Virus record (IMG/VR): IMGVR_UViG_3300017963_002072
Span: 1-23,606 of that record
DNA: 23,606 nucleotides
Strand: one strand, 5' to 3'
Source of the DNA: a virus
In this document: piece by piece, positions 3,878-22,323 of the stretch
How the letters are laid out: every line of letters starts with the position of its first letter
Position numbering within the stretch: the first letter of the stretch is position 1
Notes under the pieces: generated by a model
The model's database searches: none
What the model was told of the DNA's origin: nothing
The model's input: the letters and a program-made list of their open reading frames with translations, nothing else
Made by a program: the position numbers and the translations under genes

Positions 3878-6589
3878 TTATTTCCTTGATGTCATTTCTA
3901 AAATTGCTTCCGGATAGATCCCCCTGAAATATGCTCTGTATTGTCCACTAATTATTGTTGTTGAAGTAATATCATAAGCAAAACTGTATGGTGCACTCAG
4001 CAATGGTGCTGTGTAAACTATTTCATATGGTGGAATTGTTAATGGTGGAATTCCATAAGGATCCAAAACTCCTTTGTGATCACTATTTGAGATAAACAAC
4101 AATGAATCATATGCAAAGATCTCAACACGATTTCCATCCAGGTAAGTAACTGAATCAAGATCCAATAGATAAAAATCAATTGTTGTTTCTGTATTCACAA
4201 GATCCTTTGCCCAAACCTGATCACCATATAAATAATATCTCCAACCATCTGAATCAGTAGAATCATTCTGATATGGATATGTTGATGCACTTATACCTGC
4301 CTGTGATAAAGTCTGTTCTGTTGCAGCAGTTAATGGTAAAGTAAGTGAAGGTGGAAGATTAACATCCCAAGCACATTCTTTTGTTTTAGATATTCCATAA
4401 TTTTCATTGTGCATAAGCATTCTCGGAACAGATCCCAAATGATAAACTCTTAATCCTGGATAGAATGCTTGTCCTGGTGCACCAAAGAAAACTGAACTCC
4501 AACTGTTTGTAAGTGTGTTCCAATAGAACAGGTAAACAGCATCATAATAATCATACCATCCCCAAACGAATGCAAAGTATCCGGAAGTATAAAGATTATC
4601 ATTCAGCTTGAAGAAATTACTCCACCTGTAAATACCTTGTGCAACCTGTTGTCTGCCTCGTTGTCCAACATTAGTTAAAGTATCATTATCATAATATGGT
4701 TGTCCTGCAATCGGATTTCCTGTTACCAGGTTTGAATCACCTGCTGTTGCAACTTTATAATAGATCTCCTGTGCTAAACTGATTGATGCATTCCACCAAT
4801 AGGTTGTTGTATCCGGTGGAGATCCATCACCTGCACCAACAGGAATTTCATCACTAACCAGGTTGTAATTAGATCCACCATCAGTTGAAAAGTAAAATGC
4901 AAGTGTATCAACCAAATATGATTCAACCAGGATCTTCAAAAGATTTCCTGATAGTGTATATGTAGATCCATCCGGTTCTAATATGTTTATTGCTGCACCT
5001 GTTGGTAAGATTGAAAAACTGTTATCACTCTGATCTTCTGCTGCACCAAAAACATCAACCAATCTGATCCTTCCTTTTGATGTCAATACATCCGGAACAA
5101 TCCAATCATAAGTTGATTCACCTGTTGAATCAACCAGGATCCAGGAAGATCCTGCATTTGTTGAATAATAAATGTAAATAGAATCAACACCTGCTGCTGT
5201 CCAGGTAACTGTAACAGTATCTTCACCGGAAGTAAATGTTTCACCACCATTTGGATATGTAACTTCTAATTCAATTGATGCACTCAACCAACCTGAAATT
5301 GAAACAGATGAAGGATCATGTGATGTAGTGCTATCTTCATGCAATATTTCTGATGGAGTCCAATGAACAAAACAGGAATCACCAACTGCTTTTATTTGGA
5401 ATGGTGCATATCCGATTGTATTACTCCACAATGCTGTTGCAGGATTGCTTTCCATTCTTTTCCAGGATCCTGATCCTGGTGAATAACGATAGATCCTGCT
5501 TGATGTTGTGTTTGTATCAATTATATCACCTGCACTCATCCATAAAATTCCATCTTCACTTGCACTAATCATATTTATTGCAACTGTTGAATTTGTTAAT
5601 CCTGTGATTGTGGCTGCATCACCAATTTGAGTAATAACATCAGTATCAATATTGTATTTATATATCCTTGCACCAATCTTCTTAGGTGATTGAGCATATA
5701 CATACAATATCTTTTGTCCTGATCCATTTGTGTATCCTGTTATTCCACCTCTCCAGGAAAGTGAATCATCAATTAACTCTAAGAATGTTAATTGTCCTGT
5801 TGTGGATTCTCTTTTTGCTATGAATGATGAATCATAGATCCCTGATGAAACTGAAAAGGATCCCAAACCATAATGAGTATATACAAAGAAAACATCTTCA
5901 TCATCATCAAACTTGAAATTATCAACAGGTGATCCGGAATAACTTTTATAGCTTTCACTTCCCCAACTTGCAGATCCCCACTTAGTCTTTTGAAAAGATC
6001 CGGATACAGGGCAAAACATAGTGTCGTTTTGCATAAATAATCTTCCTGCATATCCATTGGTTCCTATTGTTGGTGCTGTTAATGCTGTTTCAGAAGATCC
6101 ATCCAATGGTGATCTATACCATATTTCAGATACTCCATTAGACCTCTGTGAAAATCTGAATAGTGAATCACCACGTATAATGTAATTAAAAGTGTTGTGT
6201 GTGAATGCAGCTTGAAAAGTTGATGCTTTGAATCTTGTAATTGAATCCTGTCCAGGAATCCAAATTGCTGCAAATTCACCAACTGTCGAAACTGCCTGTG
6301 TTGCAATTATTAAAGTATCACCATGAAAAACAGGTTTTGATATTCCTGTGCTTAAAAGATCTGTTGATGCAACACCATCATATTCAGGATAAGTCCAGGT
6401 AGTTGCAATTTCTTCAACCTGTGCAAAACTTATTCTGCTCATTAACCAGGCAAAAAGGATCACCAGGATCCACTTGTAAATTGATTTTGCTCGATCAGAT
6501 GTAATCATACCAGGTTCCCTATATCTGTAACATTCTTCATCCGGTTGTGTTGTTAAACATCCACAATATTTACAGATGTGTTCTTTCAT
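3878..6589 (-). CDS. Large signal-peptide beta-protein with Kre9/KNH-type Ig repeats (fibre/receptor-binding candidate), 903 aa
   Basis: The start ATG 6587-6589 directly follows the previous TAA and has AAGGAGATATTAA upstream. A second in-frame ATG (6506-6508, residue 28) also has an AGGGA 7 bases upstream and may be used. Residues 6-20 contain four cysteines (C6, C9, C11, C20; CKYCGC start). Residues 35-56 form a basic-hydrophobic signal sequence (KSIYKWILVILFAWLMSRIS) ending FA|Q. Residues ~60-430 contain repeated beta-blade-like segments resembling a propeller (DTLIIAT, DSLFRFS, GILWMSAGD, GSWKRME). Residues ~440-528 match a Kre9/KNH-like Ig domain (TYPNGGETFTSGEDTVTVTW, IYIYYSTNAGSSW, TYDWIVPD), and residues ~533-625 are a related, diverged copy (LAFYFSTDGGSNYNL). 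The rest is beta-rich and unassigned. A host-contacting or periplasm/surface-exported phage protein is inferred. Confidence 0.8.
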   Translation of the reverse strand: MKEHICKYCGCLTTQPDEECYRYREPGMITSDRAKSIYKWILVILFAWLMSRISFAQVEEIATTWTYPEYDGVASTDLLSTGISKPVFHGDTLIIATQAVSTVGEFAAIWIPGQDSITRFKASTFQAAFTHNTFNYIIRGDSLFRFSQRSNGVSEIWYRSPLDGSSETALTAPTIGTNGYAGRLFMQNDTMFCPVSGSFQKTKWGSASWGSESYKSYSGSPVDNFKFDDDEDVFFVYTHYGLGSFSVSSGIYDSSFIAKRESTTGQLTFLELIDDSLSWRGGITGYTNGSGQKILYVYAQSPKKIGARIYKYNIDTDVITQIGDAATITGLTNSTVAINMISASEDGILWMSAGDIIDTNTTSSRIYRYSPGSGSWKRMESNPATALWSNTIGYAPFQIKAVGDSCFVHWTPSEILHEDSTTSHDPSSVSISGWLSASIELEVTYPNGGETFTSGEDTVTVTWTAAGVDSIYIYYSTNAGSSWILVDSTGESTYDWIVPDVLTSKGRIRLVDVFGAAEDQSDNSFSILPTGAAINILEPDGSTYTLSGNLLKILVESYLVDTLAFYFSTDGGSNYNLVSDEIPVGAGDGSPPDTTTYWWNASISLAQEIYYKVATAGDSNLVTGNPIAGQPYYDNDTLTNVGQRGRQQVAQGIYRWSNFFKLNDNLYTSGYFAFVWGWYDYYDAVYLFYWNTLTNSWSSVFFGAPGQAFYPGLRVYHLGSVPRMLMHNENYGISKTKECAWDVNLPPSLTLPLTAATEQTLSQAGISASTYPYQNDSTDSDGWRYYLYGDQVWAKDLVNTETTIDFYLLDLDSVTYLDGNRVEIFAYDSLLFISNSDHKGVLDPYGIPPLTIPPYEIVYTAPLLSAPYSFAYDITSTTIISGQYRAYFRGIYPEAILEMTSRK

Positions 6590-7099
6590 TTAATATCTCC
6601 TTATCATTCTCCAAACATACTTCAATCCGGATGTTCCGGATGCCGGTCTTGTTACTATTACTTTATTTGGAGAAAGTATAGTATAAATGAATTGATCATT
6701 TGCTGTGATTGAAGTTCCACCACGTGCCTGGATCCAAAACAGATCTTCATATGCATTTAATGTGTCCACACCGGATACTGTAAATGTATCTGCTGTGAGT
6801 GTTGTTGTGAATGAATCAATCCCTGTTGCATAATTAGAGATCTTTAACACATAGTGCCCTGTTGGTGCAATCTCTGCATCAGTAACTAAGATGTGTTGTG
6901 TTGTATCAGTCCATACAATTAAAGCATAGATAAGAGAATCAATTTTCTCTTTATCTTCATTTAATATGGTGTATGGAACACGTGCACTTTGAGCATACAA
7001 TCTGAAATTATAATGTGTGGTTGAATCAATCGGTTCATCAAACACCTGTGCTGCTGTTGTTGCAGCAAAAAAGATCAGAAGCAAAAAAAGTTTTTTCAT
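6590..7099 (-). CDS. Secreted-type small protein in tail gene cluster, 169 aa
   Basis: ATG 7097-7099 follows GGAGAAATAAA, a strong ribosome site. The first 18 residues are a textbook Sec signal peptide: KK, then LFLLLIFFAATTAA, then a likely cut before QVFDEP. The mature part is beta-rich: YNFRLYAQSARVPY, HILVTDAEIAPTGHYVLKI, FTVSGVDTLNAYEDLFWIQA, ending VIVTRPASGTSGLKYVWRMI. It has no cysteines and no further membrane segment, so a soluble exported or surface protein is expected. It lies immediately upstream of the large signal-peptide gene (TAA directly abutting ATG), so the two are probably co-translated and may work as a pair. No family was recognised. Confidence 0.8.
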   Translation of the reverse strand: MKKLFLLLIFFAATTAAQVFDEPIDSTTHYNFRLYAQSARVPYTILNEDKEKIDSLIYALIVWTDTTQHILVTDAEIAPTGHYVLKISNYATGIDSFTTTLTADTFTVSGVDTLNAYEDLFWIQARGGTSITANDQFIYTILSPNKVIVTRPASGTSGLKYVWRMIRRY

Positions 7100-11997: not shown

Positions 11998-12405
11998 TTA
12001 ACTGAATGTTGCAGCTTTCCAGGTGGTTGCAGCATCATGCATATACAGTTTATCAGCTTGAAGATCTACAACCATACTTCCTAATGGAAGTGAGTTATAA
12101 TTAGATGCATTTGAACTGAATGCTGTTGAACTGTTATATACACCAAGAAACCAATCTCCATCTTCACCTGAGATCCATACTCTTTGACGCATCAAAGCAG
12201 CATAAGCAGCAGCAATGCCAAATTTCCGATCCCAACCGGCACCATCAACAACCTGATCATTTCTTTCCAATGATCCACCTGCTGCCATTGCAAATGATAT
12301 TCCTGATGCTGCTGCACCAAGTGCTTGATCAACCAGGAATAACACACCGGCAATTAGGATAAATAAGAGATTGATTAACGGAAATGATTTCAAAACTTGT
12401 TTCAT
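11998..12405 (-). CDS. Small putative capsid decoration protein with N-terminal signal/membrane segment, 135 aa
   Basis: The start is ATG 12403-12405. A TTG-initiated frame from 12420 begins at the ribosome site itself (TTGGAGATAAAAGAAATG) and should not be used. Residues 1-30 are basic then strongly hydrophobic (MKQVLKSFPLINLLFILIAG, VLFLVDQALGA), with candidate cleavage around residues 31-34. The mature part starts Gly/Ala-rich, then contains LERNDQVVDGAGWDRKFGIA, a repeated beta-like WISGEDGDWFLGVY, and ends in LPLGSMVVDLQADKLYMHDA and TTWKA. Small size, position directly after the major capsid gene and high-expression context suggest head decoration or head fibre. The hydrophobic leader is unusual for such a protein and mirrors the one on the neighbouring capsid protein. 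Confidence 0.8.
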   Translation of the reverse strand: MKQVLKSFPLINLLFILIAGVLFLVDQALGAAASGISFAMAAGGSLERNDQVVDGAGWDRKFGIAAAYAALMRQRVWISGEDGDWFLGVYNSSTAFSSNASNYNSLPLGSMVVDLQADKLYMHDAATTWKAATFS

Positions 12406-12475: not shown

Positions 12476-13849
12476 TTAAATAGCAGTAAGTTGATCTTCT
12501 GCATAAAACCAATATACAAGAGAACTGTTGTTCTCATAGAATGCACCGGCACCATTTCCAAAATAGTTATCATCATCAATTATATCACATCTTTCAAAAC
12601 CGGTGATCATATCAGCAGCATCACCAAGAAACTGCTCATAGTCTGCTGTTTCAGAACTGAATGAAAGTTCAGATCCATAACCTGCGGTGATTGCACCTGC
12701 ACCACAAATGATTGCACATTTCCTGTTTCCTGCATCACGTGGTGTAGCCATGTATGTATCTAAACCATAATTAACAGTTCCCCAATCTGAATCATAACCT
12801 GTATCACCTGAGATCCTTGCACTCGGCATGGTATCATCAACAATCATATAGGCACCTTCAACAAAGGTTCCTTCTAATTGTCCGGTGAAGATTATGTTCT
12901 CATTACCTCTTACACCTGCATCTTTCAGGTAAGTGAGATATTCAGGATCCTGCTTTAACTGCCATGCAAGTGCAGGTGGAATGAAGATCAGATAAAGAAG
13001 TTTGCCTTGAATCATGATTGGTGTTAATTTGTGATAGTTGGCTAAGTAAACCATGTTCTTGATTTTAGCCAAACTAAAATGTTTAGTTGGAACATCACTC
13101 AATGTTGCAAGTGCGTTTGATGCAGCAGTTTCATATGCAGCATTGAACAGATTACTGAATGGCACCTTACCATATCCTGCAACATAGTTGTTAGGATGTG
13201 ATTTAATGCTGAATCCAATTCCATCAACAGGATCAGTTAAGTTGTTGCTGTATCCACCAAGTATTGCATGGTATGGAAACTGTGCCAACCTTCTGCTAAA
13301 CCAATCTTGAAGATCATTTTTACCACGTTCCATAAGTGCCATCTGCACCTGTGGTTTCTTCAAAACTGCTTTTGACATTTTGTTGTCCTGAATTTCAACA
13401 GCATGTCTAACCTGGTTTATTGCAACTTTCTTTGTAAGGATCTTTCGTTTTTCCTCAGATCCTCTAAGTGCTGCAAGTCCAACTTTACCTTTACCGGTCA
13501 ATGGAACTAATACAGGTATATCCATATAGATTCCACCTTCACGTTCAAAATCTTTCACCACGTGGATCAGATTTTTAGGTGTTGGTAAACTCATTGCACC
13601 CGCATACGTTCCTGCTTTCCGATATTTAGCAACATCAATTATATCAGTAAGTTGTGCCCACTTTCCATATCTCCACACCAGCTTTTCCATTTGCTTCGCA
13701 AGTCCTCTGCGAAAAATTTGCATCTGGTCAGTCCAAGTTCCGCCAACTGTTGCAAGTGTGATTGATGTTGCTGAAACGATTGTTGCATCAAGCACAAATG
13801 CAATCGCTGCACTCACTACCATCAGCAACATAAAATATGATTTTCTCAT
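12476..13849 (-). CDS. Major capsid protein, N4-gp56-like, with N-terminal signal sequence, 457 aa
   Basis: The start is ATG 13847-13849, with TTGGAG nine bases upstream; the longer TTG frame to 13864 merely translates that ribosome site. Residues ~105-150 carry the hallmark of the N4-gp56/DUF4043 capsid family: GGIYMDIPVLVPLTGKGKVG, then AALRGSEEKRKIL and VAINQVRHAVEIQ (basic-strand, L-x-G, D/N-Q-x-R-H-A-V). A helix with ERGKNDLQDWFSRRLAQFPY follows, as in the family. The position after an acidic scaffold and portal supports the call. Remarkably, residues 1-27 form a signal-like leader (MRKSYFMLLMVVSAAIAFVL, then DATIVSA) with a plausible V-S-A cut after residue 27. This is not usual for HK97-fold capsid proteins, which are made and assembled in the cytoplasm. 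Confidence 0.85.
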   Translation of the reverse strand: MRKSYFMLLMVVSAAIAFVLDATIVSATSITLATVGGTWTDQMQIFRRGLAKQMEKLVWRYGKWAQLTDIIDVAKYRKAGTYAGAMSLPTPKNLIHVVKDFEREGGIYMDIPVLVPLTGKGKVGLAALRGSEEKRKILTKKVAINQVRHAVEIQDNKMSKAVLKKPQVQMALMERGKNDLQDWFSRRLAQFPYHAILGGYSNNLTDPVDGIGFSIKSHPNNYVAGYGKVPFSNLFNAAYETAASNALATLSDVPTKHFSLAKIKNMVYLANYHKLTPIMIQGKLLYLIFIPPALAWQLKQDPEYLTYLKDAGVRGNENIIFTGQLEGTFVEGAYMIVDDTMPSARISGDTGYDSDWGTVNYGLDTYMATPRDAGNRKCAIICGAGAITAGYGSELSFSSETADYEQFLGDAADMITGFERCDIIDDDNYFGNGAGAFYENNSSLVYWFYAEDQLTAI

Positions 13850-13862
13850 TTCAGTTATCTCC
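13850..13862 (-). promoter_or_regulatory. Ribosome binding site fixing the capsid start
   Basis: GGAG (complement of 13859-13862) sits nine bases before ATG 13847-13849, within TTGGAGATAACTGAAATG. It shows that the hydrophobic leader of the capsid protein is translated. No comparable site precedes the next in-frame ATG (residue 43), which would give a leaderless protein. Confidence 0.8.
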
Positions 13863-13913
13863 AAATATTTGTTAAAGATTTTTAATTACTTCGGGCAATC
13901 AACCTTTTCAAAT

Positions 13914-15395
13914 CTAACTCGTTTTTCTTCCGGATTTTCCTGTTGCACCTGATGCAATACTATTTTTAATCCGGTCTAATTTTTCCTGAATCTGTTCAGG
14001 TGTAAGATCATCATTATCAAAATCTTCCACTTCGATTTCTACTTTATCTCTGTGTTCCTTACCAGGTAAGTTTGAAGTTGAAGGATCTTCCATATTATTA
14101 AGTCCTGTTTTGAATCCCTGCTGTCTTGCTTTGTGTTCTTTGGCTGCGATAATAGCATCCATATTGATTTCCATCAGGTTATTATAAACTTCCTTCGGTT
14201 TAACAATTGGAATTACATCATCCATAAATGTTAGAACATCCGGATTAGGTTTATTAGTATCACCTTCCTGGAAGATCACGTTCTTCCACAAATATTCATT
14301 ATACAGTTGATCATCAAGATCTAAGGATTCAATTCCTATATCCTTCGGTGTAAGGTTGTAACGTGCAAGTTTTGCTTTGAACAATGCAACATCTGTTCTG
14401 ATAGTGCTCTCAGCAATTGATTCCCAATTCTGAGTGATATGAACATAACGATCATATTCATTATCAATTTCACCTGTGGTTTGTTTATAGAAAGCATCAT
14501 ATTCCTGATACTGCCTTCTGCTCAAACCTTCTTCAAACTCAGATAGTGCATCATCATCATCAAATGCTTCATCCGGAAATTCCGGAAATTTAGCTTTCAT
14601 TTTATTGATGATCATCTTCTGCTTTTGTTTGGTAGCTTCCTCAATGTATTTAGGATCACTCACAACCTTTTGATCAGGTTTCCAATCTGAATCAAATGGA
14701 GATCTGATTGTTTTGATATACAACTGAGCATTGATGTAGTTCTTCAATGATTTCTGATCCATTTCAGATCCTTTAATGCCATCAAGTATATCCTGGATTG
14801 CGTTGATCTTTTTATTTAATACATCAGGCGGATCATCCTTCCATTGATCTCTAAAGTTTTGCACCTGCCTGTTGATATAGTTCTCTGTGATTTTGAATGC
14901 TTTGGTTCCGGTCTTATCCTCACCAGGTTTCTGATCAGCCATCTTACCGGTCTGATCATCATCAGCATCCTTTTTATCATCAGGTTTATCATCAGTTTTT
15001 TTGTCGGTCTGATCACCAGGTTTATCTTCTTCATCTTCACCTGGTTTATCTTCTTCATCTTTGAGATCAGTTTCAACCTTACCATCATCATCATCCGTAT
15101 CAGTTTTATCATCAGTATCTTTTTTATCTTTTTCATCTTTAATCAATACAGTTTCCAAAGTCGTTTCTTCATCACGTGTTTTCATCCAATCAAGCAGCTT
15201 ATCACCATCAACATCTTCACGATCAAATAATTGATCAATTGTTTCAAGTTCCATTTCTGCAAGTTTGGATGTTGGATCCAATTCAAGTTCTTCATCTTCC
15301 TTAATGGTTGGATCCGGATCCGGTGGATCTCCACCTTCTCCACCATCTTTCTGGAAGAAGATATTTGGTATTACCCAATTTAATAAGTTGTTCAT
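13914..15395 (-). CDS. Scaffolding protein, acidic, 493 aa
   Basis: ATG 15393-15395 begins MNNLLNWVIPNIFFQKDGGE, with AAGAAAGGTGTAAA upstream; stop is TAG. Residues ~20-165 are extremely acidic and low-complexity, including D-D-D-D-G and repeated EDKPGE/EDKPGD units (encoded by two 19-base copies at 15019-15037 and 15043-15061). Residues ~165-450 are helical and charged (YINRQVQNFRDQWKDDPPDV, KQKQKMIINKMKAKFPEFPD). The C-terminus is basic (GATGKSGRKTS), as expected for a scaffold C-terminal coat-binding helix. Location between portal and major capsid protein, acidic composition and helical content are characteristic of phage scaffolds. It may also contain or be processed by a protease, but I see no catalytic motif. 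Confidence 0.8.
   Translation of the reverse strand: MNNLLNWVIPNIFFQKDGGEGGDPPDPDPTIKEDEELELDPTSKLAEMELETIDQLFDREDVDGDKLLDWMKTRDEETTLETVLIKDEKDKKDTDDKTDTDDDDGKVETDLKDEEDKPGEDEEDKPGDQTDKKTDDKPDDKKDADDDQTGKMADQKPGEDKTGTKAFKITENYINRQVQNFRDQWKDDPPDVLNKKINAIQDILDGIKGSEMDQKSLKNYINAQLYIKTIRSPFDSDWKPDQKVVSDPKYIEEATKQKQKMIINKMKAKFPEFPDEAFDDDDALSEFEEGLSRRQYQEYDAFYKQTTGEIDNEYDRYVHITQNWESIAESTIRTDVALFKAKLARYNLTPKDIGIESLDLDDQLYNEYLWKNVIFQEGDTNKPNPDVLTFMDDVIPIVKPKEVYNNLMEINMDAIIAAKEHKARQQGFKTGLNNMEDPSTSNLPGKEHRDKVEIEVEDFDNDDLTPEQIQEKLDRIKNSIASGATGKSGRKTS
15019..15061. repeat. Short tandem repeat within the scaffold gene
   Basis: Two 19-base copies, GGTTTATCTTCTTCATCTT at 15019-15037 and 15043-15061, with a 24-base period. 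They encode a doubled acidic EDKPG unit in frame, so the repeat can change copy number without breaking the scaffold frame. Confidence 0.7.
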
Positions 15396-15440
15396 TTTAC
15401 ACCTTTCTTCTTAGGGAATAGGTTTATTAAGTTTCCTGGA

Positions 15441-15956
15441 TTACCAGGTATTATCTAACTCTGAAACACGTCTGTGCTCTCTCAATGGTATTGTTACAAC
15501 AGTAACAGCACTTGCATTTCCACCTGTATTAGTAATGGTGAAATAATATGCCGGTGCACTCCAACTGTTCAATGTAAGTGTTGAGAGAGTATCATCCACA
15601 CCCTGATTAGCAGCAGCAACTTGTGCAGTATCTAACGGATACGTGTAAGATCCACCATTGTAAACACCCCAAAGGATGATTTCAAGATTAGCAGTTGTTG
15701 CCGGTGCACCATCAGTTGCCTGATCATGATAAACAGTAATTGGATGTGTAGCGGATATTCCACCATCAAAATCATCTAATGAGAACTGTCTTGTGGTGAG
15801 TGTCTGAGCACTATCAATATCATAGATCATCAATAGTGTTCTTGTATCCGTTCCATTCCAATTCTCTGTTGCATCTGAATCAGTTGCAGACAATTGAGCA
15901 AACATTGTTGAACTGAAAAGCATCAGCATCAACAATGGAAGAATGAATCGTTTCAT
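15441..15956 (-). CDS. Secreted-type small protein between portal and scaffold, 171 aa
   Basis: ATG 15954-15956 is preceded by AAAAGGAGATACCAA, a strong ribosome site. Residues 1-20 are a clear Sec signal peptide (MKRF, then ILPLLMLMLF, ending MFA|Q). The mature part is Thr/Ser/Ala-rich and beta-like (NWNGTDTRTLLMIYDIDSAQ, TANLEIILWGVYNGGSYTY, APAYYFTITNTGGNASAVTV), ending with a charged tail IPLREHRRVSELDNTW. There is no cysteine or second membrane span. It resembles small surface or decoration proteins with an immunoglobulin- or jelly-roll-like fold, but no family was recognised. Its position inside the head-assembly block, between portal and scaffold, suggests a head role despite the export signal. 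The stop codon sits in the loop of a small CCTGG/CCAGG hairpin. Confidence 0.8.
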   Translation of the reverse strand: MKRFILPLLMLMLFSSTMFAQLSATDSDATENWNGTDTRTLLMIYDIDSAQTLTTRQFSLDDFDGGISATHPITVYHDQATDGAPATTANLEIILWGVYNGGSYTYPLDTAQVAAANQGVDDTLSTLTLNSWSAPAYYFTITNTGGNASAVTVVTIPLREHRRVSELDNTW

Positions 15957-15972
15957 TTGGTATCTCCTTTTA

Positions 15973-18120
15973 TTATTGGTTAATTAAGGCACCACGTTGT
16001 GATTGCCCTGCACCACGTGGATTGTTATTTAGAAAATTCTTTTGGAATTGATTATTAACTATCTGATCAGCCATATTATAATTTTCGATATCAGATTTAT
16101 CCATCTGCTGAATAGTTTGTTTTATGTTAAAGTAATTCTGTGCTGCTGTTTGTTGCCTTTGCATCTGTTCTTCAAACTGCATCATTTCAACTTGCTTTGC
16201 AAGATCACCTTCAATAGTCTGAATGTGTGCTAACCATTTATGCTTGTTAATCAATGGTGAAGTTTCAACAACAATCTTAGGATCTACATATGCAGGATTG
16301 AATTGCATCAACCAATTTGCCATTTCAATATTTCTCTGGAATTCTCTATCCTGTGCTTGTCTGCCATATGGTGTTTTAGAGATCCTAACATGATACTTTC
16401 CATAACTAACATCATTCATTACCCTGCCAAGATAGAATTGATTTAATGGCAACCACAATGGATCTTCATCATCACGTAAAATCATAATTGCTCTCGGCAT
16501 GATCAGGAATCTTTGTCCAAGTGATATTGCATTCTTAGCAACCATCACAAGTGATGCCTGTGCATTCTCTGAGATCCATTCCTGCATAACATTTGCCTGT
16601 TCAACTCTGTTCTCAAATAAAATACCTGATTCTTTGCTGCTTTCCTGCCTACCTCTGAAATTAGGTGAAGATCCGGAAATAAGATTAATATCTTCTTTCT
16701 CATTCTCTGCTTCTACTCTTAATCCTTCCGGATATGGTGCAGGTTTAATTTCCTGAATTCTTTTTTCTGCAAGTGCACCATCCCTTACTTTCTTCAATCC
16801 ACCAATTTCATGGTTTTCAAAATCTTCTTCATGTCCTGCAACAGCATTTTCTTCACCAAGATAACCACCATGTGCTGCTCTCATAATATAAGTTAGAATT
16901 GTATTCCTGCGTAAGTTGTAAGAAGAAACAGGATCCACAATGTGATCCATAATAGATTTTGTTTCTAAGATCTCTGGATGAAAATCGAAACATAAAACAG
17001 GAACATATTTGAATTGTTTATTTTGAAATTTTTGCATTCCATCATGCAATACCAGGTTCATTGCAGGAACAACAGATGTTTGCCATATGATCTCACTCCA
17101 TTCCTGTGTAACCTTTGGCTCAATGTATTGCTCTCTGATCATTCCAAGTTTTTCACGATCAAACCATCTGGATGAAAAGCGATCATATTTTTCTGATTTA
17201 ACTTCTTCACTCACATCACGTTTCTCACCTGTTGCAAGATCTTCAATGTTCATTGAAGGAAGCATTCTCTTTTCATACCAATCAATTACTTTGAATCTCC
17301 CATCACCATTATACCAGGTTCCGGAAAATCCATATCTAAGATTATCAACATTAGAATCATAACCTGCTTTTCTTCCACCATATTGGATTGATGCATTCAG
17401 AAATCTTTCAGCCCAAGTGATCAACATCTGTTTCATTCTACCCTTCTTAATTGTTGATTCACCTGCAATCATTAAACCTTTCTCATATACTTCATCCCTG
17501 AGATCCGGTTTTTTCTTACAGAACAAATTTATAATTTCTTCCACGTCATACCATCCACCATCAGATATGAATCTCATGTCGGATGTATCTCTCCTTTGCC
17601 AATTAGTATCAAATTTAATTCTTAATGGATCATACCAGGAAATGTTCACCATTCCTTCATCATCTTTTTGGTGATCATAACCTGTTTTCAACCAACCAAT
17701 CCTTCCAACAATTGCATACAGAAATGCAATAGCAAATTCATAAACAATATCATTTGCCTGGTATAGATAGTGATCCATCAGTTGCGATTGCAATTGAGAT
17801 CCTGTATGATCATCCTGAGTAACACCGGTTATATCTAAACCAGGAATGTTCATTTTGAAATTGCCAATTATGGAAAGCACGATTGGAAGGAAAAGATTCC
17901 ATTCAAAATCCGGTCTGTTTTCAACAGCAAGTTTCTTTAGATCTGCGGATGAATAGATGTGTCCTGCAAGTCTGAAAAAGTTCTGTAAGATCTCTCTGTG
18001 GAATAGCTGAAAATCACTTGCAAGTTTCATCTCAGCAGTTCCGATTCGGGCAACTGCCTCTACATCTTCATATTTGGATCCTGAAACATAACCGTATTGG
18101 TTAAGTTGTCCTTCGGGCAT
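15973..18120 (-). CDS. Portal protein, P22-like, 715 aa
   Basis: ATG 18118-18120 is preceded by AAGGAAGGAATTATC. Length (715) and order after the terminase match the large P22-type portals (~725 residues). The N-terminal part has FFRLAGHIYSSADLKKLAVE, FLPIVLSIIGNFKMNIPGLD (the crown/wing I-x-N-x-x-x-x-x-P motif common to this group), FAIAFLYAIVGRIGWLKTGY, and ISWYDPLRIKFDTNW (acidic/aromatic portal strand). A long stem region, RIQEIKPAPYPEGLRVEAEN, is followed by SGSSPNFRGRQESSKESG, a region like the P22 G-x-G-S/T conserved stretch. The C-terminus is a Q/N-rich helical barrel-like tail (MQRQQTAAQNYFNIKQTIQQ). It forms the dodecameric ring for DNA entry and exit. A small ORF overlaps its first ~60 bases. 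Confidence 0.85.
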   Translation of the reverse strand: MPEGQLNQYGYVSGSKYEDVEAVARIGTAEMKLASDFQLFHREILQNFFRLAGHIYSSADLKKLAVENRPDFEWNLFLPIVLSIIGNFKMNIPGLDITGVTQDDHTGSQLQSQLMDHYLYQANDIVYEFAIAFLYAIVGRIGWLKTGYDHQKDDEGMVNISWYDPLRIKFDTNWQRRDTSDMRFISDGGWYDVEEIINLFCKKKPDLRDEVYEKGLMIAGESTIKKGRMKQMLITWAERFLNASIQYGGRKAGYDSNVDNLRYGFSGTWYNGDGRFKVIDWYEKRMLPSMNIEDLATGEKRDVSEEVKSEKYDRFSSRWFDREKLGMIREQYIEPKVTQEWSEIIWQTSVVPAMNLVLHDGMQKFQNKQFKYVPVLCFDFHPEILETKSIMDHIVDPVSSYNLRRNTILTYIMRAAHGGYLGEENAVAGHEEDFENHEIGGLKKVRDGALAEKRIQEIKPAPYPEGLRVEAENEKEDINLISGSSPNFRGRQESSKESGILFENRVEQANVMQEWISENAQASLVMVAKNAISLGQRFLIMPRAIMILRDDEDPLWLPLNQFYLGRVMNDVSYGKYHVRISKTPYGRQAQDREFQRNIEMANWLMQFNPAYVDPKIVVETSPLINKHKWLAHIQTIEGDLAKQVEMMQFEEQMQRQQTAAQNYFNIKQTIQQMDKSDIENYNMADQIVNNQFQKNFLNNNPRGAGQSQRGALINQ

Positions 18121-18412: not shown

Positions 18413-20068
18413 CTATACTCCCATGACTGAGTGTTGTTTTTTCTTTCTTCCCCACTTTTTCAATGCCCAATCAGGAAGATTTTCCTGCCCTGTTGCGAAT
18501 GGTGCAGGTAGTGCCATGATACCATAACGATTACAATCAAGTGCATGATCAATTACTTCCGGATCATTTCCCTGCCCTTGAAGATCTTCCACGTTCTTTT
18601 CATCATGCTGTGCAGCAGTTATTTCATCAAGTAATGGTTCATTGATTCTTTCAAACACAAAATACTTTTGGTTGTGCATATATTGTTTCATTGCCCACCA
18701 ACCAAGCACACGATCTGTTACTGCTTTTTGAAGATACAAACCATTCTCCTGGAAAATATCTGCAAATGATTTATCAGTTCTTTTAACTGAAAAGCGATCC
18801 TTCTTATGGAATGCATCATGCCCTGCAACAATGAAATCAGGCATTCTACCATTAGTATAAGGAAAGTTTGTTATGATCTTGTGAATATTCTTTGCGTGTG
18901 TTTCAGGATCTCTACCTTTAACATAATAAGTGAATAGTGTATAGATCCGATCTTCATGATCACGTGCAATCAATTGAAATGCACATGGTGAACTCCATCC
19001 AGGATCTATGCAGCCAATCAATTGCCAATCTTTTGGAACATCAAATGGTCTGATCACCATTCTTCTTCTATCAAATTCATCAAAGAAATCTCCACCAAAT
19101 GCATCCCAATCACCATGCAATAGTGCTCTTTCCATCTTCCTGCCCATCTGCATAATGTTAGCAGCATAACCAGGATCAGTTTCCATCAGTATTTTGTTAT
19201 CCCTTAATAAACCAGGAATGAATGTTCTGCTTTTAGCTTTTAAGAAATCAGGATGATTAGGTGAAACCATTACACCTGTTGGATTATCTTCTGGATTATC
19301 AACTCTTGGATCAGGAATAAAGAAGTGTGATTTTCCTGGCTTCATTTCCCAAGATCCATTCCTGATGAATCTTTTTCTCACCCAAACTAAACCAATTCCT
19401 GTTGGATTGGTTGTGGATCTTATCCTGGTCGGAAGATTACATCCATCATTTACAACTATTCCTCTACATCTGGAAAAGAGATATAAATATTGCTTCAATG
19501 TGAACTGAGTAAGTTCATCAAAACCAATAAACTGATATTCCAACCCTTGATGGTTTTCCATATCACTTTCCTGTTCCATGTGGCATAAGAAGATCTGTGC
19601 ACCGGAAGGAAATGTGAATGATGCACCTGGTTCACCTTTACGTTGTAATACAAACTGTGCACCAAAATAAGGATACATCATTTTGCCAATATCAATCAGC
19701 TTTTGTAACTGTGTGGTTTTTCTTCTGAATACAACTGCTCTGTATTCCGGATGATCAATTGCTCTCATTCCAAATTCATGACGTGGCAATCCTGTTTTTT
19801 CATCTATACCAAAGTGCAAACCTAATGCATCAAACATAAGCATCCAGGATTTTCCACCACCTGCTGCACCACCATACAATACTTCAAACTCCGGTGCTGT
19901 TTGGAATCTCCTTTGTCCACCTGGTTGTGGTTGAAACTTAATAACATTTAATGTAGGTGTTTCATCAAATCTATCGCCAACAATAATCTGAACTTTCCTT
20001 TTGCTATCAATTTCAGTTTCAGGATCCGGTGGAAATACCCAACTGTGCTTATGTTCGGTTAGGTTCAT
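18413..20068 (-). CDS. terL: Terminase large subunit, 551 aa
   Basis: The start (ATG 20066-20068) overlaps the preceding TAA (TAATG). The ATPase domain has a Walker A variant GGAAGGGKS (residues 66-74), Walker B FIGFDE (180-185, with catalytic E185) and the coupling motif STTNPTG (218-224). The C-terminal RNase-H-fold nuclease shows IGCIDPG (D355), AGHDAF (D418) and EVIDHALD (D507/D511), the expected acidic metal ligands. It packages DNA through the portal. It matches Terminase_6/Terminase_3-type large subunits in length and motif spacing. The protein stops with TAG at 18413-18415. No inteins or disruptions are visible. Confidence 0.92.
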   Translation of the reverse strand: MNLTEHKHSWVFPPDPETEIDSKRKVQIIVGDRFDETPTLNVIKFQPQPGGQRRFQTAPEFEVLYGGAAGGGKSWMLMFDALGLHFGIDEKTGLPRHEFGMRAIDHPEYRAVVFRRKTTQLQKLIDIGKMMYPYFGAQFVLQRKGEPGASFTFPSGAQIFLCHMEQESDMENHQGLEYQFIGFDELTQFTLKQYLYLFSRCRGIVVNDGCNLPTRIRSTTNPTGIGLVWVRKRFIRNGSWEMKPGKSHFFIPDPRVDNPEDNPTGVMVSPNHPDFLKAKSRTFIPGLLRDNKILMETDPGYAANIMQMGRKMERALLHGDWDAFGGDFFDEFDRRRMVIRPFDVPKDWQLIGCIDPGWSSPCAFQLIARDHEDRIYTLFTYYVKGRDPETHAKNIHKIITNFPYTNGRMPDFIVAGHDAFHKKDRFSVKRTDKSFADIFQENGLYLQKAVTDRVLGWWAMKQYMHNQKYFVFERINEPLLDEITAAQHDEKNVEDLQGQGNDPEVIDHALDCNRYGIMALPAPFATGQENLPDWALKKWGRKKKQHSVMGV

Positions 20069-20691
20069 TATTTTCCTTTTTTCATTTTCTCTCTTATGAT
20101 AGTATTCACATCTTCCTGGAAGGATGCATCAACCATATCAATTGGTCTAAGTTCTTCAACAACAAAAACTGCTGCCATCATTCTTCTACCTGCTGAATGT
20201 TCTACTTTTAATTGTGGTGTAGCAAATCCAACTTCATAACCAAAATTTCTTATTGCCTGGTTTGCTGCTGTTGCATTAAAAATATATTCACCTGTTGGTT
20301 TACCTTTTTTATCCAACACCGGAACTGCTGCCATTGCCTGATCCAATACTTGCTTCTGCTTTATCATTAACCAATCTTTTGTTAATTGAAATTTCTCAGC
20401 ATTCTTTTTACCTAAATAATGAATGTATAACTGCACCTTATCGTTCTGCAGCAACCTGAATCCATTCACCTTTGCTGTTGATTCTTTTACTTCGGGATGT
20501 GTTGTGAGATATGCTTTCTTAGCATTCCAACATAATAGATATTCTTCTGCGAATCTTTTATGTTCTTCCGGAAATACTGATAAGAATAATGAAATGTTTT
20601 CATCAGTAATTTCATTCGCTGTAAATTGTGGATGTGATTTCTTCCGGTCTGTCCTGCCGGTTTTCCTGGTTGGTTTTTGTTTCTTCGCCAT
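20068..20691 (-). CDS. terS: Terminase small subunit, 207 aa
   Basis: ATG 20689-20691 with GGAGTAAGATCCA upstream; the TAA overlaps the large-subunit start. Residues 1-20 are a basic tail (MAKKQKPTRKTGRTDRKKSH). Residues ~35-95 contain the Terminase_2 small-subunit DNA-binding helices: EEHKRFAEEYLLCWNAKKAY, then LTTHPEVKESTAKVNGFRLL and QNDKVQLYIHYLGK. Residues ~95-135 continue with LTKDWLMIKQKQVLDQAMAA. The rest includes KKGKPTGEYIFNATAANQAI and the C-terminal VVEELRPIDMVDASFQED, likely contacting the large subunit. It recognises the packaging site, which may lie in the structured region just upstream. The gene opens the late operon. Confidence 0.88.
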   Translation of the reverse strand: MAKKQKPTRKTGRTDRKKSHPQFTANEITDENISLFLSVFPEEHKRFAEEYLLCWNAKKAYLTTHPEVKESTAKVNGFRLLQNDKVQLYIHYLGKKNAEKFQLTKDWLMIKQKQVLDQAMAAVPVLDKKGKPTGEYIFNATAANQAIRNFGYEVGFATPQLKVEHSAGRRMMAAVFVVEELRPIDMVDASFQEDVNTIIREKMKKGK

Positions 20692-21705: not shown

Positions 21706-21961
21706 ACTTAAACCATACCTTTCTGTGTTTTTGTCCTGGTGAAACTTGAATCTCATAATACATAAACCAGGAAGGAATCTTTGCTTTACCTGTTCTTTTT
21801 ATTCCAAACTTCGGTTGCAGATTAAAATCAAATAGCTTATCTGCCATATCACCATAATCATGTTTCAGGTTCCGTAAAACTTTATTAGCAAAATCATCTT
21901 GTTCCTTCCTTAGTTCATTCGGTTTCTTATCAGGCACCTTCATACAAAATTTTATTATCAT
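21695..21961 (-). CDS. Uncharacterised small protein, 88 aa
   Basis: ATG 21959-21961 overlaps the preceding TGA (ATGA); there is no separate ribosome site, so translational coupling is likely. An alternative start at residue 7 also lacks a site. The protein is hydrophilic and basic: a helical part (KKPNELRKEQDDFANKVLRN), then NLQPKFGIKRTGKAKIPS and a beta-like end WFMYYEIQVSPGQ. No motif or family was recognised. Confidence 0.65.
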   Translation of the reverse strand: MIIKFCMKVPDKKPNELRKEQDDFANKVLRNLKHDYGDMADKLFDFNLQPKFGIKRTGKAKIPSWFMYYEIQVSPGQKHRKVWFKYEK

Positions 21962-22323
21962 TTTTCTGATTCTTTAATTGTTTTTTTGTAACTGATTCCC
22001 AACCAACGATAAAATCCATCAATCTCATTGAGTGTTACTCTGCCAACATTTCTATACTTTTTCCAATCCATCCTTCGTATATTCAGCAGTTCCCTTCCCT
22101 TAATATTTTTTGGAAATGCACTTCTGATTACGTTATATGCTCTAATGCTGAATACATTCCCTGATTCTTCATATTCATCAGCCAAATCAACAACCGGTTT
22201 ATCCAACTGTGCAACAATTCTTTCAACTATCGGATCCGGTGCTGTCCTGGATCCATTGATTGGATTCTCTTTCCAATCTCGATCTCTTACTTCCATCCAG
22301 GCAAGATCAAATGCTTCCTTCAT
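21958..22323 (-). CDS. RNA polymerase alpha-CTD-like protein or C-terminal part of an interrupted MazG fusion, up to 121 aa
   Basis: ATG 22321-22323 has AGGGATTCACA upstream, so a stand-alone start is possible, but the frame is continuous (after one TAA) with the upstream MazG-like gene. The first ~20 residues (MKEAFDLAWMEVRDRDWKEN) are the usual C-terminal helix of the MazG domain. Residues ~40-112 align by eye with the E. coli alpha-CTD: KPVVDLA, IRAYNVIRSAF, LLNIRRMDWKKYRNVGRVTL and NEIDGF. R61, N64, N92, G94 and T97 correspond to the DNA-contacting R265, N268, N294, G296 and S299, while the K298 position is V96. A DNA- or RNA polymerase-binding role is inferred. Confidence 0.65.
   Translation of the reverse strand: MKEAFDLAWMEVRDRDWKENPINGSRTAPDPIVERIVAQLDKPVVDLADEYEESGNVFSIRAYNVIRSAFPKNIKGRELLNIRRMDWKKYRNVGRVTLNEIDGFYRWLGISYKKTIKESEK

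Follow-up and report, generated by a model that had tools for sequence, protein, structure and literature searches.

A membrane-type leader on the HK97-fold major capsid protein of one phage clade suggests unusual, perhaps membrane-linked, head assembly

The heads of tailed phages are usually described as self-assembling in the cytoplasm around a scaffold and a portal. In HK97 and T5 the delta domain of the capsid protein replaces the scaffold, and the major coat protein of filamentous phages, pVIII, has a fold and an assembly unrelated to those of the HK97-type capsid. In T4 the inner membrane is where prohead assembly begins, through the portal protein gp20, and once cleavage has taken place the emptied prohead comes free (PMC9958956). 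The likeness to the phages described here lies in a tie of head assembly to the inner membrane followed by release, both of which are suggested here by sequence; in T4 (gp20, gp40, YidC) the portal is the attached part, and the excerpts of that source do not mention a capsid protein with a comparable hydrophobic leader (PMC9958956). An anammox encapsulin carries a Sec-like signal on an HK97-fold shell protein (PMC8346489), but that protein has a cytochrome fused to it, forms a compartment of the cell within the anammoxosome rather than a phage head, and does not package DNA. The pVIII protein forms a membrane helix, and cleavage of its precursor appears in the reference list of the same source (PMC3185693). 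The delta domain of HK97 and T5 is, like the leader described below, an N-terminal extension before the capsid N-arm, and a helix-loop-helix has been proposed for it (PMC3185693); the present clade differs in having a scaffold-like gene and a leader of membrane-strength hydrophobicity. A signal or membrane leader on the major capsid protein of a tailed phage was not found described in the open-access papers searched, as judged by titles and the starts of abstracts. The solved capsids of phages GP4, Pan3, Pam1 and KHP30/KHP40 have the same HK97-type body as the protein analysed here and the same gene order of terminase, portal, scaffold, capsid and small protein.

The stretch of DNA that was analysed, referred to as the window, is a virus record of 23,606 bases. 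Its major capsid protein gene lies on the minus strand at 12476..13849, with the ATG at 13849 and the stop ending at 12476, and encodes 457 amino acids, as the initial annotation had it. The reading frame is open to an upstream TTG at 13864, which is the start given in the list of open reading frames. A GGAG motif resembling a Shine-Dalgarno sequence (13859..13862, minus strand) precedes the ATG by 9 nt (TTTGGAGATAACTGAAATG), in keeping with the well-placed ribosome site that had been noted. Beyond its N-terminal hydrophobic leader the product is an HK97-fold major capsid protein of the N4-gp56/Phage_capsid_3 kind. Residues 52-420 match phrog_334, 'major head protein' (E 2.3e-22, 80.6 bits), and PF13252, Phage_capsid_3, matches from residue 90 (E 1e-11, 44.9 bits against a cut-off of 23), which bears out the earlier remark that the N4-gp56-like core begins only later in the chain. 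An AlphaFold2 model built with 16 sequences (mean pLDDT 69, pTM 0.70) contains a long helix at 166-198; its best solved match is the GP4 capsid (Z 22.1, rmsd 4.4, 305 residues), and the Pan3, Pam1, KHP40 and KHP30 capsids match as well (Z 20.1-22.1 over 291-309 residues). In all of these the alignment begins only at about model residue 59, and residues 1-44 are barely probed by the fold search.

The leader comprises residues 1-37 (13739..13849, minus strand) and is recognized by its hydrophobicity, a frame control, its conservation and its occurrence in a single clade. It consists of an n-region, MRKSY, in which residues 2-3 are the two basic residues (R-K) reported earlier, an h-region (6-19), an LDA turn (20-22), a segment of small residues (23-35) and Gly-Gly (36-37). 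The core had been put at about 20 hydrophobic residues; a hydrophobic core is present, but that length is generous, since the unbroken run, F6-V19, has 14 residues and is closed by L20-D21. The best-19 mean Kyte-Doolittle value of the leader is 2.42, the usual threshold for membrane strength being 1.6, and the other two frames of the same DNA, used as a control, reach 0.68 and 0.88 and contain 4 and 1 stops. Type I Sec signal peptides have a basic n-region and an h-region of 7-15 residues, a pattern that MRK and F6-V19 fit. The hydrophobic core, which in the four leaders discussed below is 14-17 residues long, is short for a full membrane span and equally suited to a signal peptide. In the model the leader forms helices at 2-19 and 25-32 with pLDDT of about 40-50, the second, which lies in the segment after the turn, being at about 40.

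Relatives with such a leader are rare and were reached only through alignments and motifs. Single-protein searches with the capsid protein against viral and genome contigs, and with the terminase and the portal, returned no close relatives, and tblastn of the portal and of the protein encoded next to the capsid gave no matches in the phage collection. An alignment made initially from distant relatives diverged too much to serve as a query, and a two-row alignment led to only two distant loci. A degenerate capsid-core motif recovered 31 viral stretches and 13 genome stretches, most of the latter being chance hits. One of the genome stretches, L040, on a contig binned as Melioribacter roseus (Ignavibacteriota), encodes a capsid protein that is 60% identical to that of the window and has a hydrophobic start. 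An alignment of the window and L040 proteins yielded seven viral loci (L056-L062), and a further alignment scan yielded the same seven. Genomes related to L040 held one more copy, L054, of the L058 lineage; the genome with L054 also encodes L055, a leaderless relative with 37% identity. With L040's own genome included, hits numbered 2 in 164 genomes of the order, 1 in 391 of the class and 1 in 395 of the phylum. A last motif scan gave 21 stretches, of which 17 were read, the other four being records already in the set; several were known already, and the rest are leaderless with about 25-37% identity. Four leader lineages are thereby recognized: the window, L040, L058 (together with L054, L056, L057, L059, L061 and L062) and L060. 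Two of these lineages were found in genomes from the order to which the Melioribacter bin belongs. The candidate proteins numbered 67, of which 51 match the window capsid by phmmer and collapse to 43 when near-copies are merged. The 16 dropped for want of a phmmer match are mostly short or chance motif hits, and three of them (L018, L028 and L029) have a short conserved stretch in common with the window by blastp and are probably real distant relatives.

N-termini of membrane strength are present in four of the 43 non-redundant capsid relatives, namely the window and its three sister lineages, with best-19 means of 2.23-2.46. The best-15 Kyte-Doolittle mean of the other 39 is at most 1.15; these include three proteins whose N-terminus is incomplete in the data (L039, L079 and L002), and for L009, L025 and L033 the first ATG, which was used, is probably upstream of the true start. 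Outside the clade formed by the four lineages no such leader occurs in the 36 relatives with a readable N-terminus. In a tree of the capsid bodies, built with the leaders cut off from 23 rows chosen from the 43, the four leader lineages form one clade with support of 100/100, and a single change in leader presence suffices in 99% of the bootstrap trees. In five leaderless relatives (L066, L071, L073, L076 and L078) the residue after the start Met aligns with G37 of the window. Because these closest leaderless relatives start at the residue aligned with the Gly-Gly, the leader is an in-frame addition just ahead of the ancestral start. The simplest reading is that it was gained once, in one phage clade, a reading drawn from the tree and not from the leader sequences. 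Other N-terminal additions are met with in this capsid family: the distant capsids L033 and L012 have short amphipathic starts (MFKWLKSLSKFLKDERGFA... and MFSWLKLYF...), the former being absent from the near relatives L011, L016 and L020.

The four leaders have a common plan, in which a basic start is followed by 14-17 hydrophobic residues, [D/E]-Ala, 12-14 small or hydrophobic residues and Gly-Gly; beyond this comes the capsid N-arm with M43 and FRRGL. Only M1, A22, G36 and G37 are invariant across the four lineages up to the Gly-Gly. The leaders are 11-35% identical to each other, compared with 55-77% for the bodies, yet hydrophobicity is kept, which suggests a constraint on hydrophobicity and not on a specific interface; the pattern is that of signal sequences and membrane anchors. 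In region-preserving shuffles the L058 and L060 leaders are clearly alike (z 4.1) and that of L040 is moderately like both (z 2.3-2.5), and the window leader is not alignable with the other three above the shuffles (z 0.8, -0.08 and 0.87). The leader frame is real, is restricted to one clade and has kept its hydrophobic architecture.

The head genes of the window lie on the minus strand in this order: the terminase small subunit (20068..20691; PF03592, 5.3e-11), the terminase large subunit (18413..20068; phrog_979, 3.2e-51), a P22-like portal (15973..18120; PF16510, 1.6e-51), a 171-residue protein (15441..15956) and a probable scaffolding protein (13914..15395), the capsid gene being placed after portal and scaffold. 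The last is an acidic protein of 493 residues, assigned by position and composition and without a family match. Neither the terminase large subunit nor the portal carries a leader. A scaffold-like gene lies directly upstream of the capsid gene in all four lineages; that of L058 (5830-7194, plus strand) has a hydrophobic start (MFNLWVKPLFVLLSFFGLAPLF; best-15 2.55). L060 does not share this feature and the window has it only in weak form; the idea that hydrophobic starts of scaffold and capsid generally go together holds in the L058 lineage only and was rejected. The 171-residue protein has an ordinary signal peptide (...STMFAQ), and the window, L058 (5287-5781) and L060 (8183-8656; read-strand positions for both) all have such a gene between those for portal and scaffold, the signal peptides being ordinary-looking and ending in A-Q or S-Q.

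Our preferred reading, put forward tentatively and with the balance falling just on the doubtful side, is that heads are assembled at the inner membrane, to which the leader would draw the capsid protein. From the sequence we infer translation in cells, membrane insertion, a hairpin topology, assembly at the membrane and removal of the leader, and these steps might combine as follows. A membrane-targeting module would have been added in frame, most simply once, to an ordinary HK97-fold capsid protein in one clade. As synthesis of the capsid protein proceeds, the leader would carry either the growing chain or the completed subunit to the inner membrane. Its insertion there would most simply take the form of a short hairpin, the capsid domain staying in the cytoplasm. 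By the positive-inside rule, basic flanks with an acidic loop favour a hairpin with both ends inside; such a hairpin is favoured here because basic residues lie on both flanks of the leader with an acid between them, and the charges would fit a capsid domain in the cytoplasm. Subunits would be concentrated on the membrane surface, where the portal, the scaffold and, in the window phage, the next head protein would meet them to form a prohead. The head would be freed later, the leader being removed, plausibly near the acidic-Ala or the Gly-Gly, or pulled out. The Peptidase_S78 prohead protease was found in none of the 11 relative records searched, which are mostly fragments, and no peptidase family was found in the window proteins scanned. 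A bolder and improbable version would have the head built on or around lipid: hundreds of leader-anchored subunits would bend or gather a patch of membrane, so that proheads would arise as membrane-bound buds, perhaps with a lipid layer until the leaders are cut. If true, an HK97-fold virus would here be assembled by a route based on a membrane.

The main rival, rather unlikely in our estimation, is an internal assembly element comparable to the delta domain, a helix-loop-helix inside the prohead that would bind the scaffold or neighbouring capsid subunits and never be at the membrane. Helix-loop-helix elements are described for the phi29 and P22 scaffolds, and the delta domains of HK97 and T5 have been proposed to contain them too (PMC3185693); helices at 2-19 and 25-32 are drawn in the model, and the scaffold of the L058 lineage also has a hydrophobic N-terminus, but this is lacking in L060 and weak in the window, and each of the four lineages has a separate gene for an acidic scaffold-like protein. 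Moreover, the leader evolves far faster than the body, unlike a specific interface, its sequence is of membrane-strength hydrophobicity and not a charged coiled coil, and a leader is also found on the next protein of the window. The initial annotation had described a Sec-type signal with a plausible cut after residue 27. A genuine cleavable signal, cut by the host signal peptidase after A22 (or A27) with at least partial export of the capsid protein, would account for the resemblance of the n-, h- and c-regions to a signal peptide, and it has a precedent in the anammox encapsulin, an exported HK97-fold shell protein with a Sec-like signal (PMC8346489). The phage uses the Sec pathway, since neighbouring genes carry ordinary signal peptides. 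A22 is invariant, with L, V, L and P at position -3 to it in the window, L058, L060 and L040. An A22 site fits the (-3,-1) rule of signal peptidase in three of the four leaders, the Pro of L040 being the exception. V25-S26-A27 is present in the window, but it is not conserved in the relatives, and cleavage at 27 is without support. A recurrent [A/S/G]-Q motif closes the genuine signal peptides of these phages and is missing from the capsid leaders, and the best-15 means of the capsid leaders are 2.70-2.95 against 2.05-2.36 for two small signal-peptide genes. A cleaved signal would also leave the second hydrophobic stretch and the Gly-Gly unexplained. The packaging proteins have no signals and the filling of heads with DNA must occur in the cytoplasm, with which full export is least compatible. 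Export of the capsid body is unlikely in view of the leaderless terminase and portal and of flanking charges that suit a hairpin whose two ends are in the cytoplasm, and a cleavable Sec signal as a whole is improbable. What stands of the earlier interpretation is a signal-like leader before an HK97 core, for which membrane anchoring or unusual assembly is the most natural inference; the Sec cut after 27 does not.

Two further readings concern synthesis of the leader, and both are given little credence. If the leader were not made, or rarely made, synthesis would start at Met43 (13721..13723, minus strand) or nearby, the upstream frame being open for another cause. Met43, the internal start proposed earlier, is invariant in all four leader lineages, and outside relatives do start at or near there, one part of the situation that had been named as telling against a translated leader; the leader nevertheless recurs in three sister lineages, so the refutation named earlier does not apply. 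The open frame, a ribosome site or translational coupling (the L054/L058 capsid start has an ATGA overlap with the upstream scaffold gene) and the membrane-strength hydrophobicity recur in the four lineages, the other frames contain stops and are not hydrophobic, and no good ribosome site is seen by eye before Met43. A misread start was accordingly rejected, and a leader that is seldom made is very unlikely. Even a shade less probable is a translation-control device, in which the hydrophobic nascent chain would slow or stall ribosomes, or delay folding until partners are ready, without lasting effect on location. Such a device, which includes the delayed folding mentioned in the initial annotation, would fit a fast-evolving hydrophobic leader; no conserved arrest motif was seen, however, and capsid proteins need very high output.

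Recruitment to the inner membrane may be viewed together with the next gene (11998..12405, minus strand), which encodes a small beta protein of 135 amino acids. In the window only, it begins with a membrane-strength leader at about residues 1-44 (best-19 mean 2.56); the L040, L058 and L060 homologues, which begin at about the position of its internal Met40, have no leader. The body is modelled as a small beta protein, for which the fold search turned up nothing strong. A weak match to a small protein in the LME-1 capsid is no more than suggestive (Z 4.2, 66 residues, 21% identity), and the main chain of that entry also matches the capsid model (Z 13.8). The next protein is possibly a capsid accessory protein and, if so, two head proteins of the window phage would have such leaders. 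Its leader, similar to that of the capsid protein and absent in homologues, is as a portable targeting module would show; co-targeting of this protein would not be general, because the homologues in the other three lineages have no leader. Duplication of the leader from the capsid gene to the next gene was considered. The DNA alignment is good, and none of 1000 coding-only codon shuffles scored as high; the duplication is not claimed, because the pair comes only second when all upstream regions of the window are compared two by two (231 pairs), and is outside the top eight listed in a pairwise control on the first 126 bases of coding regions.

The capsid protein thus belongs to a known family, and its membrane-type leader, a feature that relatives outside the clade lack, suggests an unusual and perhaps membrane-linked head assembly. 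A conserved leader of this type would make a role of the membrane in head assembly directly testable. If membrane-type, it would show a localisation signal bolted onto a capsid protein, and it would offer a natural tool for membrane-tethered HK97 shells.

Genes for proteins of about 157-204 amino acids with signal-peptide-like starts are found repeatedly in the head module, on either side of the scaffold or capsid gene, in leader-bearing and leaderless relatives alike; further genes of the kind are L076:312-884, L072:8390-8869, L075:12814-13350, L080:1906-2418 and L083:2164-2778 (read-strand positions). In the tail region of the window, signal peptides are found on a protein of 169 amino acids (6590-7099) and, after an N-terminal tail, on one of 903 amino acids (3878-6589), both on the minus strand, the latter with a weak Kelch match below the cut-off; the L058 counterparts (13998-14507 and 14483-16888) also have signal peptides, and a gene in the same place in L040 (7452-7856) has a lipoprotein-like start (LLTISCNSQ). 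The terminase large subunit of L060 (2584-5316, plus strand) has 910 amino acids, and its Walker A region is interrupted by what, judged by eye, resembles an intein (GGAAGPGK|ECDVHH...PTHN|SWAL), whereas that of L058 has 531 amino acids and no such insert. An endolysin-like gene (Glyco_hydro_108 and PG_binding_3) lies near small membrane proteins in the L059 record (L084:8835-9458, minus strand). The window also encodes a protein of 121 amino acids (21958-22323, minus strand) with a match below the cut-off to the RNA polymerase alpha C-terminal domain (PF03118, E 8e-4, 19.5 bits against a cut-off of 23.8).
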